Below, one piece after another: positions 28,027-33,745 of a stretch of 64,000 nt of DNA. A program made the translations under genes and the position numbers. Each line of letters begins with the position of its first letter. Positions within the stretch are counted from its first letter, which is position 1. The notes beneath the pieces were generated by a model. The model did no database searches. It was not told the origin of the DNA and was given only the letters and a program-made list of their open reading frames with translations. The stretch is from Sulfurospirillum sp. UCH001 (GTDB taxonomy: Bacteria; Campylobacterota; Campylobacteria; Campylobacterales; Sulfurospirillaceae). The DNA is taken from assembly GCF_001548035.1 (NCBI RefSeq), contig NZ_AP014723.1, positions 2,294,001 to 2,358,000 of the forward strand, written 5' to 3'.

Positions 28027-28800
28027 ATGTTAGAAGCACGATTGTGGATGAAAAAAAGCAATAAAAACTATCTGGGCAAAGGGCGCATTGAACTCTTAGA
28101 ACGTATCCGTGAACACGGTTCCATTCACGCTGCTGCAAAAGCTATGAAGATGAGTTATAAAGCCGCTTGGGATTCCGTCGATGCTATGAATAATCTCTCA
28201 GAAACGCCACTTGTTGAAAAAGTCAGTGGTGGCAAAGGTGGTGGTGGAACGTTTCTTACAGCCAAAGGGGAAGAAGTCATCGCCGCATTTCACAATCTTC
28301 AGGTGAAACATCAACAATTTTTAGACCTTTTTGCAAGCAGTGATGATCTACCAACCATCGTTCAAACGCTCAGTCGTCTCTCATTAAAACTCAGCGCTCG
28401 CAATCAACTTATCGGCACCATTAGCGCCATTCAGGAAGATACGGTCAATGTTGCCATAGAATTAACGATAAAAGAATCCGATAAAATTTATTCCAGCATT
28501 ACCAAAAACAGTTATCAAGAATTAGGACTTCACCTTGGGGAAAGTGCGATTGCTATTATTAAGGCAAGTTCTGTATTGCTCTCAAAAACAAAGCCAACCA
28601 TCGCATGTGAGAATCTCTTAAAAGGTAAAATTATTCAAATTTTAAGTGATACTTCCAACACCGAAGTAACGCTAGAACTTAAAAGTCAAAGTACCATTAC
28701 AGCCACCATTGCCAATGATGCGTTTGAACCGTTAGGATTAAAAATCAACGAAGAAGCATACGCTTTCTTTAAAGCCTCAAACGTTATTTTAGGTGTTTAA
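28027..28800 (+). CDS. modE: ModE molybdate/tungstate-responsive regulator with two Mop domains
   Basis: 257 residues: N-terminal winged helix (about 10-110: GKGRIELLERIREHGSIHAA, MKMSYKAAWDSVDAMN, VSGGKGGGGTFLT) and two C-terminal Mop/TOBE repeats (about 125-190 starting LSARNQLIGTISAIQ, and about 195-257 starting ENLLKGKIIQIL). This is full ModE architecture, sensing molybdate or tungstate. It faces away from fdh cluster 1 across a shared 528-bp region and may control it or tup. Confidence 0.9.
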   Translation: MLEARLWMKKSNKNYLGKGRIELLERIREHGSIHAAAKAMKMSYKAAWDSVDAMNNLSETPLVEKVSGGKGGGGTFLTAKGEEVIAAFHNLQVKHQQFLDLFASSDDLPTIVQTLSRLSLKLSARNQLIGTISAIQEDTVNVAIELTIKESDKIYSSITKNSYQELGLHLGESAIAIIKASSVLLSKTKPTIACENLLKGKIIQILSDTSNTEVTLELKSQSTITATIANDAFEPLGLKINEEAYAFFKASNVILGV

Positions 28801-29701: not shown

Positions 29702-30781
29702 TTAAATCACGTAGTCATTCCATAAAGCCTCACCTGTATAGATGCGGGCACTCTCAAAATGTACAAACAATGACTCATTTTCGTGCGCTTTGATGTTTTG
29801 CCACTCGCTTTTAGAAATCTCCGCTTCTACTTTTTGATGCTCTTTGAGCGTTTCAAGCTCAACTCTCACTCTAGGTCCTACCAATCGCCAGCCGATCAGT
29901 TTTGCTTCGATGCCACTTCCTTCTGCATTGTCCACACTGATGTTGATCTCATGCGGGCGAACAAACAGTGATGCTTCTTTAGAACTTCCTAGATCTGGTG
30001 TGTTAAGTGCTGTATTTTCAAGATGGAGTGAGCCTTGTTCCACGCGCGCATGAAAGAGGTTGACATTACCCAAAAAGCTATAGACAAAGGGATTGGCAGG
30101 TCTGTCGTACACCTCTTCGGGAGTCCCTATTTGTTCGATTTTGCCTTGGTTCATCACTACAATTTTATCGGACACCTCAAGCGCTTCTTCTTGGTCATGG
30201 GTCACAAACACACTGGTGATGTGAATCTCATCATGCAAGCTTCTTAGCCACTGACGAAGCTCTTGACGTACTTTGGCATCCAATGCTCCAAAAGGCTCAT
30301 CCAGTAACAACACTTTAGGCTCAACGGCAAGGGCGCGCGCTAAGGCGACACGTTGGCGTTGCCCACCTGAGAGTTGCGATGGATAACGGTTCGCGATCCA
30401 GTCAAGTTGAATGAGCTTTAAGAGTTTATGCACCCGCTCTTTGATCTCCTCTTCACTCGGACGTGTCTCTTTAGGTCTAACACGAAGCCCAAAAGCGACA
30501 TTTTCAAACACACTCATGTGACGAAAAAGCGCGTAGTGCTGAAACACAAACCCCACACCTCGGTCACGCACATGTGTAGCCGTAGTATCTTCTCCATTAA
30601 AATAGATTGTTCCGCTATCGGCTTGTTCCAGTCCTGCGATGATGCGAAGCAAGGTCGTTTTACCTGAACCTGAAGGTCCAAGAAGGGCTACTAGTTCGCC
30701 ATCGGGGATGGTTAAATTAATGTCACTCAGTGCTGTAAAATTTTCAAAACGTTTATTGATATGTGCTATTTCTATACTCAT
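29702..30781 (-). CDS. cysA: Sulfate ABC transporter ATPase CysA
   Basis: 359 residues. Walker [15 protein letters not shown] (about 34-47), signature [15 protein letters not shown], Walker [13 protein letters not shown], switch [12 protein letters not shown], and a C-terminal TOBE-like domain of about 120 residues. Ten bases separate it from cysW. Energises sulfate/thiosulfate import with CysT and CysW. Confidence 0.93.
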
Positions 30782-30790
30782 TATTTATCC

Positions 30791-31627
30791 TTAGTGAACA
30801 GACGAGCGTTTTTTACCGATACGCCACTCAATGAAACTTTTGAGCACCAACGTCAATAGTGCTAAAAGTGTTAAAAGCGAAGCAACCGCAAAGGCCGCAG
30901 TGAAAAGGTACTCGCCATATAAAATCTCAACATGTAAAGGCATCGTTGTTGTTACACCTCTGATGTGACCCGAAACAACGGCAACCGCTCCAAACTCACC
31001 CATGGCCCTGGCATTGCTGAGAATGACACCATAAAGCAAGCCCCATTTAATGTTAGGCAAGGTTACTTTCCAAAACGTTTGCCAACCTGTTGCACCAAGC
31101 GTTAGGGCTGATTCTTCCTCATCCGTGCCTTGCTCTTGCATAAGAGGAATAATCTCACGCGCAACGAAGGGCGAAGTGATAAACAGTGTCGCAAGAATGA
31201 TACCTGGTGTCGCAAACACGATGCGAATATCATGCTCACCAAGCCATGCTCCCAACCACCCTGAACTTCCAAATAAAAGGACAAAAATCAAACCTGCGAT
31301 GACAGGTGAAACAGCAAACGGAAGATCAATCAATGTGATGAGAAGCCCTTTACCACGAAATTCAAACTTTGCAATGAGCCAAGCGGTGGCAACGCCAAAA
31401 ATGGTGTTAAGAGGTACAGTAATGATAACAACTAAAAGGGTCAGTTTAATCGCCGCAAGTGCATCAGGCTCACTGATGGATTCAAAGTACACTTTCCATC
31501 CTTTAGCCAGTGCTTCACTAAAAACAACGCCCAAAGGAAGGGCTAAAAAAACACCTAGGAAAAGAAGCGTTGTGCCCAATAAGAGGGGTTTTAGCCATTT
31601 TGGCTCTAAACGATGTTCGGTTTGCAT
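30791..31627 (-). CDS. cysW: Sulfate ABC transporter permease CysW
   Basis: 278 residues, six membrane segments, EAA loop [20 protein letters not shown] (about 165-185) and [13 protein letters not shown] typical of CysW. It pairs with CysT from the next gene upstream. Confidence 0.92.
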
Positions 31628-31636
31628 CTTCTTTTC

Positions 31637-32467
31637 CTATAAACTTTTTTCGCGACTGTAAATCTGAATGGCATTGATAAAAAACAGAATGACAAAGGTT
31701 GCTAGCAACATCACGGTTCCAACCGCCGTTGCACCCACATAATCAAACTGAGAAAGTTTGGTCACGATAATGAGTGGAACGATTTCACTCACATAGGGCA
31801 TATTGCTCGAGATGAAGATGATAGAGCCATACTCACCCAGTGCCCGTGCAAACGAGAGCGCAAAGCCCGTCAAAAGTGCTGGAAGCAAAGAGGGTAAAAT
31901 GACTCTGCTAAACGTCTGCCACCACGAAGCGCCAAGGCTTGTAGATGCTTCTTCAAACTCTTTTTCAAACTCTTCAATCACAGGCTGAACGGTACGTACC
32001 ACAAAGGGTAACCCAATGAAAATAAGTGCGACTACGACGCCTGCCCTAGAATAGGCAATTTGGATACCTAAAGGCTCTAAAAATGAGCCTATCCAACCAT
32101 TGCTCGCAAAGATAGCCGCAAGTGCGATACCTGCAACCGCCGTAGGAAGCGCAAAAGGCAGATCGACCAATGCATCGACAATTTTTTTACCAAAAAAGTT
32201 ATAACGTGCCAATGTCCATGCGACAATGAGTCCAAAAAAGAGATTGATGAGTGCAGCAATAAAACTTGCACCAAAACTAAGTTTAAACGAAGCCAAAACT
32301 CTAGGATCAAGGATGACCGCACCAAACTCACTCCATGAAAGTTTGGTTGTATAAAGGAGTAATCCTCCTAGTGGTATGAGCACTAGAAGGGTTACATAGG
32401 TTAGACTAAAGCCGAGCGTTAAGCCAAAACCTGGCAAGACACTCGGTTTTCTAAACTGCGACTTCAT
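31637..32467 (-). CDS. cysT: Sulfate ABC transporter permease CysT (CysU)
   Basis: 276 residues, N-terminal [15 protein letters not shown] as in CysT, six membrane segments and EAA loop [21 protein letters not shown] (split here by position, about 170-190), followed by [15 protein letters not shown]. Overlaps the binding-protein gene by four bases (ATGA). Confidence 0.92.
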
Positions 32468-33480
32468 CGCTTAATTGAAGCGAAGATTTTGTCAAATTCG
32501 CCACCATCAGCAAAGTGTTTCTTCTGAGCTTCGCCCCAACCATTAAAGACTTTATCAATGGTAAAGAGTTTAAGTTTAGGGAATGTTGCTTCACTCTCTT
32601 TAGTAATTTCAGGATCGGTTGGACGGTAATAGTTTTTCGCCGCAATTCTCTGACCTTCTTTAGAGTAAAGGTACTCTAAGTAAGCAGTAGCTACCTCTTT
32701 GGTTCCTTTTTTCTCTACGTTTTTATCGACAATGCTGACACTAGGTTCTGCTAGGATGCTAATACTTGGAACGACAATTTCAAATTTATCACGACCTAGT
32801 TCATTGATAGACAGGAAGGCTTCATTTTCCCATGCCAGTAGCACGTCACCAAGTCCACGTTGAACAAAGGTATTGGTTGCTCCACGAGCTCCTGAGTCAA
32901 GTACGGGGACATTCGCATAGATTTTAGAGACAAACTCTCTGGCTTTCTCTTCACTACCGTATTTTTCAAGTCCATAACCCCAAGCTGCTAAATGATTCCA
33001 ACGTGCACCACCTGACGTTTTAGGGTTTGGAGTAATGACTTTAATGTCGCTTCGTGCTAAATCATCCCAGTCTTTAATGCCTTTTGGGTTACCTTTACGA
33101 ACAAGAAAGACGATGGTAGAAGTATACGGGGCACTGTTATGAGTAAAGCGTTTTTGCCAGTTAGGATCAATTGCTTTTGCTTTTTCAGCAATGGCATCGA
33201 CATCATACGCAAGGGCTAGTGTCACGACATCCGCATCCAATCCATCGATCACACTTCTGGCTTGAGCACCTGAACCTCCATGAGATTGACGAATAGTGAT
33301 GTTATCGCCTTTCTTTTCTTTCCAATGTTTAGCAAATGCTTGGTTGTACTCTTTATAGAACTCTCTTGTTGGGTCGTATGAGACGTTGAGTAAAGAGATG
33401 TCTGCTGCGTGAATAAAAGGCGCTACAAGCGCCAAAACTGCTATGGTTAATCCAAAGAGGCTTGATTTTAAACTTTTCAT
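32464..33480 (-). CDS. Periplasmic sulfate-binding protein
   Basis: 338 residues from MKSLKSS (33480), which has AAAGGA upstream and gives a signal peptide ending FIHAA; a longer frame from 33555 overlaps the leader peptide ORF and lacks a ribosome site. Family motifs: [30 protein letters not shown] and [19 protein letters not shown], typical of Sbp/CysP. Sulfate versus thiosulfate preference cannot be told. First structural gene of the importer; probably regulated by the upstream leader ORF. Confidence 0.92.
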
Positions 33481-33491
33481 ATTTTTTCCTT

Positions 33492-33547
33492 TGTGTTGTT
33501 GATTTGAACTATATATATGTGGTGAAAGACGTTTTTTTAGCAACACA
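33492..33547 (-). promoter_or_regulatory. Complementary segments linking leader Cys codons and the downstream ribosome site
   Basis: On the minus strand TGTGTTG (33547-33541) covers the last Cys codons of the leader ORF, and CAACACA (33498-33492) is its exact complement, directly abutting the AAAGGA of the sulfate-binding gene (33492-33487). Pairing would bury or crowd that ribosome site; a ribosome stalled on the Cys codons would prevent it. Confidence 0.55.
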
Positions 33548-33602
33548 TCAGACAAAAAACACGAGTACTCTTCCCATGAATAAGGGAAATATTAGACTTC
33601 AT
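33537..33602 (-). CDS. Cysteine-codon leader peptide of the sulfate importer
   Basis: A 21-codon ORF: perfect AAGGAGGT five bases before ATG (33600-33602), stop TAA at 33537-33539. The peptide starts MKSNISL and ends VFCLMCC, with Cys codons TGT, TGT and TGC at positions 17, 20 and 21, the last two just before the stop. It lies 25-35 bp after a near-consensus promoter and 57 bp before the sulfate-binding gene. This is the layout of an amino-acid-sensing leader; here the amino acid would be cysteine, the end product of sulfate assimilation. No published homologue is claimed. Confidence 0.7.
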
Positions 33603-33631
33603 GGTTTACCTCCTTGTTTTAAAGTGACGAA

Positions 33632-33660
33632 ATAATAGCAGATTCTTTTTTTATTGTCAA
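33632..33660 (-). promoter_or_regulatory. Sigma-70-type promoter of the sulfate operon
   Basis: On the minus strand TTGACA (33660-33655), 17-bp spacer, TATTAT (33637-33632). About 30 bp later comes the leader ribosome site. Confidence 0.8.
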
Positions 33661-33745
33661 GAATATATATCGATTTAGTAGTGTATAAAAATAGTCAAGA
33701 TTCTTTTATGGTATAATCTCATCAAAGTCTATAAAAGGTTTTGGG

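Follow-up and report, generated by a model that had tools for sequence, protein, structure and literature searches.

What controls sulfate uptake at this locus of Sulfurospirillum sp. UCH001, and does the short reading frame in front of the importer genes take part in it? The window, by which we mean the whole 64,000-nucleotide stretch analysed (2,294,001–2,358,000 within a 2.6 Mb genome), contains the operon sbp-cysT-cysW-cysA (33480–29702, minus strand), named by NCBIfam. A PAPS/sulfate reduction cluster is carried by the same genome. A gene for a ModE-type molybdenum regulator (window 28027–28800) is found near the far end of the importer operon.

For the region preceding the gene of the sulfate-binding protein (SBP), a first-pass annotation had listed a promoter, a ribosome site, a 21-codon ORF with Cys codons at positions 17, 20 and 21, the complementarity TGTGTTG:CAACACA and the repeat CCATGAA/TTCATGG. 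All of these are present, on the minus strand (Table 1). Comparative evidence and predicted folds indicate that the 5' leader of the importer is probably a ribosome-mediated translational attenuator which senses cysteine via Cys-tRNA.

Table 1. Features of the importer operon and its leader region (window coordinates).
Feature	Position	Strand	Remark
Candidate transcription-factor element TATACACTACTAAA, immediately 5' of -35	33674..33687	-	common to cysHDN promoters of the genus
Sigma-70-type promoter TTGACA-17-TATTAT	33632..33660	-	kept in 8/8 genomes
Shine-Dalgarno AAGGAGGT of leader ORF	33608..33615	-	invariant in 8 genomes
CCATGAA at leader start, partner of 33580-33574; possible occlusion of leader start	33598..33604	-	7 pairs in 8/8 genomes
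Leader ORF, 21 codons; Cys at codons 17, 20, 21	33537..33602	-	
TTCATGG (end of codon 8, His9, start of Gly10), pairs with leader start	33574..33580	-	
Leader arm of predicted occluding helix TCGTGTTTTTT (leader nt 39-49)	33554..33564	-	
Cys17 codon TGT	33552..33554	-	varies: His or Phe in two relatives
TGTGTTG over last Cys codons	33541..33547	-	
Leader arm over Cys codons TGTGTTGC, partner 33498-33492	33540..33547	-	
Cys20-Cys21 codons TGT TGC, adjoining stop	33540..33545	-	invariant
CAACACA, partner of Cys codons, abuts SBP ribosome site	33492..33498	-	
SBP ribosome site AAAGGA	33487..33492	-	
SBP ribosome site, spacer and start codon AAAGGAAAAAATATGA, occluded in predicted fold	33477..33492	-	
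SBP gene, 338 aa	32464..33480	-	NF008022 545 bits, TIGR00971 500 bits
CysT sulfate permease	31637..32467	-	TIGR02139 above cut-off
CysW sulfate permease	30791..31627	-	TIGR02140 above cut-off
CysA sulfate ATPase	29702..30781	-	TIGR00968 above cut-off

Conservation of the leader ORF

The promoter matches the consensus at 11 of 12 positions and has a TG preceding the -10 box; the 5' UTR of the leader is about 27 nt long. The upstream ORF has a ribosome site of its own, and the presence of a single promoter suggests that it shares a transcript with the importer. Neither Pfam nor NCBIfam gave a match to the leader, and nothing in the window reached the Rfam gathering threshold, which leaves the leader without a known RNA family or riboswitch.

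Conservation in relatives had been proposed as a check of the leader. In a sample of 24 genomes of the genus, the ORF was detected in all eight which carry an SBP gene (HMM E-values 1e-13 to 1e-15) and in none of the 16 which lack it. A weak match in G013 was dropped as it contains a stop codon, and those in G024, G042 and G032 as they lie inside longer reading frames or in ordinary sequence. All eight importer leaders, the eighth being MKSSKAIIHGKSTHVFCLMCC, have 21 codons and end with Leu-Met-Cys-Cys-stop, and in each of them pairing with the SBP start region is predicted. Invariant residues are MKS, HG, VF and the LMCC before the stop codon. Of the three Cys codons to which a sensing role had been assigned, Cys20 and Cys21 are kept in 8/8 genomes but the third is not: residue 17 is Cys in six genomes and differs in G001 (His) and G008 (Phe).

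Conservation extends to the nucleotide level. Codons 15, 16 and 18–22 and about 8 nt past the stop codon do not vary at all, and the leader end CTGATGTGTTGCTAAAAAAA is identical in the eight genomes. The four-fold sites of the SBP gene differ from G000 by 43–54%, which is near saturation, and its longest run of identical codons across the eight genomes does not exceed three. The leader is therefore constrained as RNA as well as peptide.

Pairing of RNA could by itself keep TGTTGC conserved. Two observations argue that the Cys codons matter as such. G004 and G005 are devoid of the CAACACA partner yet retain both Cys codons. The other observation comes from a second copy of the leader (MTFYHAPFHGKTTLVLCLMRCC and variants), which four genomes carry in front of a GGDEF-EAL gene (L126–L129 in G004, G005, G001 and G011), 2–8 kb from the cysHD cluster. 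This copy ends with LMRCC*: it has CGT (Arg) in place of TGT, and an extra TGC restores Cys-Cys-stop. When the duplicated leaders were tested for an occlusion switch by folding, none was predicted. In G001 the promoter upstream of the duplicate is replaced by unrelated sequence.

The best explanation, thus refined, is that Cys20-Cys21 would be the sensing codons and that Cys17 would be dispensable.

A predicted helix over the SBP start

The TGTGTTG:CAACACA pairing noticed earlier turned out to be one end of a longer predicted helix which extends to the SBP start codon. Leader nucleotides 39–49 (UCAUGUUUUUU) are predicted to pair with positions +4 to -7 of the SBP gene, that is with the start codon and the spacer. 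The exact heptamer itself does not hold throughout: CAACACA is found in only two genomes, is altered in four and is replaced by AUCAGA in two. The segment over the Cys codons meets CAACACA, AACACA, AGCACACA or AGCACA 5' of the SBP ribosome site, depending on the genome, while UCUGAU:AUCAGA stands in for this second part of the helix in G004 and G005.

Unconstrained folding of each transcript, which is prediction only, gave a common architecture in the eight genomes. The helix has an identical register in seven of them; it is weakest in G017, where the register is shifted and core pairs are mostly below 0.6. In the 10-pair core, 97.5% of the cells are standard pairs, compared with 44–71% when the strands are slid by 1–3 columns. 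The predicted helix persists over leader-to-SBP gaps of 56–198 nt, a range which arises because four genomes hold long, partly palindromic inserts. These inserts (L003, L085, L088, L089, L090) consist of about 70–140 nt of unrelated sequence.

Controls on the pairing were run for each genome; the genomes being related, these are not independent tests. The numbers of dinucleotide shuffles of the leader body and of synonymous recodings, respectively, which reached the observed pairing per 100 were 0 and 10 (G000), 8 and 17 (G001), 0 and 3 (G008), 14 and 40 (G017), 13 and 26 (G011), 0 and 0 (G005), 0 and 0 (G004), and 3 and 15 (G012). Synonymous recodings thus often pair nearly as well as the observed leader. 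When the G000 leader was set against the start sites of 44 long ORFs of the window, that of SBP among them, only one other site paired better. Folded alone, the leader region shows no exceptional stability in G000 (z -0.54); the pairing at the SBP start, in contrast, is significant against shuffles. No compensatory change was found in the eight genomes, either in CCATGAA:TTCATGG or in the occluding helix, whose leader arm is nearly constant and whose other arm includes a start codon that cannot change. The occluding helix is therefore supported by conservation, register and shuffles rather than by covariation.

We modelled the effect of a ribosome on the leader. For the SBP start region, folding predicts a mean pairing of 0.57–0.93 in the free transcripts of the eight genomes versus 0.26–0.55 with the ribosomal A-site at codon 17, 20 or 21. 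The Cys codons are not the only positions at which the site opens, as a ribosome at any point from about codon 13 onward already exposes the SBP start; the Cys specificity of the switch would thus come from the dwell time at these codons. In G001, G008, G011 and G012 the SBP start partly re-closes once the A-site holds the stop codon, so that in these four genomes the Cys codons would be the last open position. The earlier suggestion of a stalled ribosome gains support from these folds and from the comparative evidence, a ribosome at the Cys codons being predicted to open the SBP start.

We propose the following mechanism. With ample cysteine, the ribosome would finish the leader and depart, the helix would close and SBP would be poorly translated. 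When Cys-tRNA is scarce, the ribosome would wait at Cys20/Cys21 and cover the leader arm, leaving the SBP start open and raising sulfate uptake. The second helix, CCATGAA:TTCATGG, none of whose pairs varies among the genomes, may limit re-initiation on the leader. The direction of the response, with low cysteine opening the start, is suggested by the anatomy of the leader and by analogy to the mycobacterial precedent (PMC9031893, PMC13236596).

Level of control and nature of the signal

Alternatively, attenuation could act on transcription, with the waiting ribosome preventing premature termination at a Rho-dependent site or a weak hairpin. Rho-dependent attenuation has been proposed for mycobacterial cys leaders (PMC1262725), and inside the leader ORF of G000 lies a hairpin which, with its U run, resembles a terminator. 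Since the Cys codons come after this hairpin, the polymerase would already have passed it by the time a ribosome could sense cysteine. No terminator-like site was found between leader and SBP in G000; among the relatives this gap contains no conserved sequence and no conserved terminator, and in 4/8 genomes it is occupied by unrelated extra sequence. A classical transcription attenuator was rejected on account of this terminator-free gap, and we regard control by premature termination in general as improbable. Transcription may be controlled further upstream by a factor binding at the promoter, with the leader being of little weight and its ORF conserved for other reasons. The sequence TATACAYTASTA is positioned just 5' of -35 in the importer promoters, and a related form occurs at cysHDN-linked promoters in 5/6 genomes read. 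Taken alone, such a factor explains neither why a 21-codon ORF with a CC* end is conserved codon by codon nor why leader and SBP strictly co-occur, and we judge it improbable as the sole control. The two tiers can coexist.

The leader could also be translated and regulatory while responding to a signal other than Cys-tRNA, if its Cys-Cys end bound a metal or sensed the redox state, or if the HG...VF.LMCC peptide arrested the ribosome. Residues H9, G10, V15, F16, L18 and M19 are indeed as conserved as the Cys pair, and Cys-containing nascent-chain regulators of copper genes are reported for other Proteobacteria. Against this, those non-Cys codons that are conserved fall within paired segments of the RNA, and pairing explains their conservation, since the first variable positions lie directly at the borders of TTCATGG. 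The target is a sulfate importer and not a metal gene. Finally, Cys residues encoded by the last two codons would still be deep in the ribosome. We consider such a signal unlikely, and attenuation of translation by Cys-tRNA supply remains our preferred explanation.

A transcription factor could nevertheless provide a second tier to this attenuator, as suggested by the promoter element in common with cysHDN. TATACAYTASTAAA adjoins the -35 box of the leader promoter on its 5' side. A variant, TATACATTASTA, was found 5' of the cysHDN-linked promoter in G000, G001, G004, G011 and G017, and is not evident in G008. In its own genome the exact element occurs only twice, the second copy preceding the gene for an ABC-transporter binding protein. 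It is plausible that genes of sulfur assimilation share a transcription factor which acts at this element. Occurrences of TATACAYTASTA at window 33674–33687, at L002 and upstream of cysH (L168–L173) make it a candidate site of a sulfur regulon. Directly 5' of cysH, the gene that comes first after the cysHDN promoter encodes a small conserved membrane-type protein (MVEHKKRSI.KAISWRTLGTVDTMLISF...; L168–L173).

Known attenuators and other leaders in Campylobacterota

Translational attenuators of the erm type (ermCL/ermBL) rely on a ribosome stalled on the leader to open a hairpin which hides the downstream ribosome site. The opening logic proposed here is the same, but the signal is a macrolide in the erm systems and would be uncharged Cys-tRNA in Sulfurospirillum. 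Polycysteine leader ORFs of mycobacteria are described by Canestrari et al. (2020; doi 10.1111/mmi.14498), as cited in PMC9031893 and PMC13236596; mycobacterial cys leaders had been predicted earlier (PMC1262725). The Sulfurospirillum leader resembles these: it is a short ORF, has adjacent Cys codons close to its stop codon (CC* in 8/8 importer leaders) and lies 5' of genes for sulfur assimilation. The mycobacterial type is proposed to act via cysteine-dependent ribosome speed and downstream initiation, and we propose the same here. The mycobacterial ORFs are leaderless, whereas the Sulfurospirillum leader has a strong Shine-Dalgarno sequence and a 5' UTR; it would thus work like the mycobacterial type and not be a member of that sequence family. 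It further differs by belonging to another phylum, by having no recognisable sequence similarity, by its target, the sulfate importer, and by the conserved predicted helix over the downstream start codon.

Within the phylum, Leu, Trp and Met leader peptides are reported from the translatome of Campylobacter jejuni, where Ribo-seq showed them to be translated (PMC11955535). They are of the same amino-acid-codon type but involve other amino acids, and the text of that study contains no Cys leader. The mechanism is thus of a known kind and, according to the searchable literature, new to Campylobacterota, which agrees with the earlier remark that no Cys leader is described for sulfate operons of this group.

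Outside Campylobacterota, only one of 78 SBP loci has an ATG ORF of 8–30 codons with a Shine-Dalgarno sequence and two Cys within 300 nt. Within the phylum, leaders of other types were found. In family f7, all 24 SBP genes are preceded, at a distance of about 110–120 nt (L152–L167, L176–L199), by a leader of the form M-M-[CSY]-x-M-[mostly C], for example MMCDMCKKIKYKNKKKVRFF. In this MMCDMC type, Cys3 is present in 21/24 and Cys6 in 20/24 cases, with at least one of them in every leader; Met codons 1, 2 and 5 are invariant, and synonymous changes occur at Cys3 and Asp4. Consensus folding of the f7 leader region gave only a 4-pair hairpin and no conserved occluding structure. Some genomes of L176–L199 have two copies of an operator-like sequence, TTCACxxATTTAGTGTATATT, one 5' of the leader and the other 5' of SBP. 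Two genomes of genus g6 in family f2 (L150, L151) have Cys-rich leaders, MAQMCSDCYCQYNMYFK and MAQMCYKYCCQYNMYLTRICA, of the type MAQMC...C about 175 nt 5' of SBP. No such leader was found at other Campylobacterota SBP loci (L145–L149, L158, L161, L164).

The leaders of the other families share only Met-Cys with that of Sulfurospirillum, which suggests repeated origin. Leaders with codons for sulfur amino acids may have arisen independently at least three times before sulfate importers of Campylobacterota (HG..V..LMCC, MMCDMC and MAQMC...C), and sulfate uptake in this phylum may repeatedly rely on translation-based sensing of cysteine or methionine; we put this forward tentatively, from sequence comparison. 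As different families have Cys/Met leaders without sequence relationship before the same gene, it can be tested whether nutrient sensing by leader ORFs evolved convergently. If our explanation for Sulfurospirillum is correct, cysteine-sensing attenuation, known from Actinobacteria, would reach Campylobacterota, sulfate uptake of Sulfurospirillum-type bacteria would have a concrete mode of control, and a small, well-delimited element would be at hand for reporter work.
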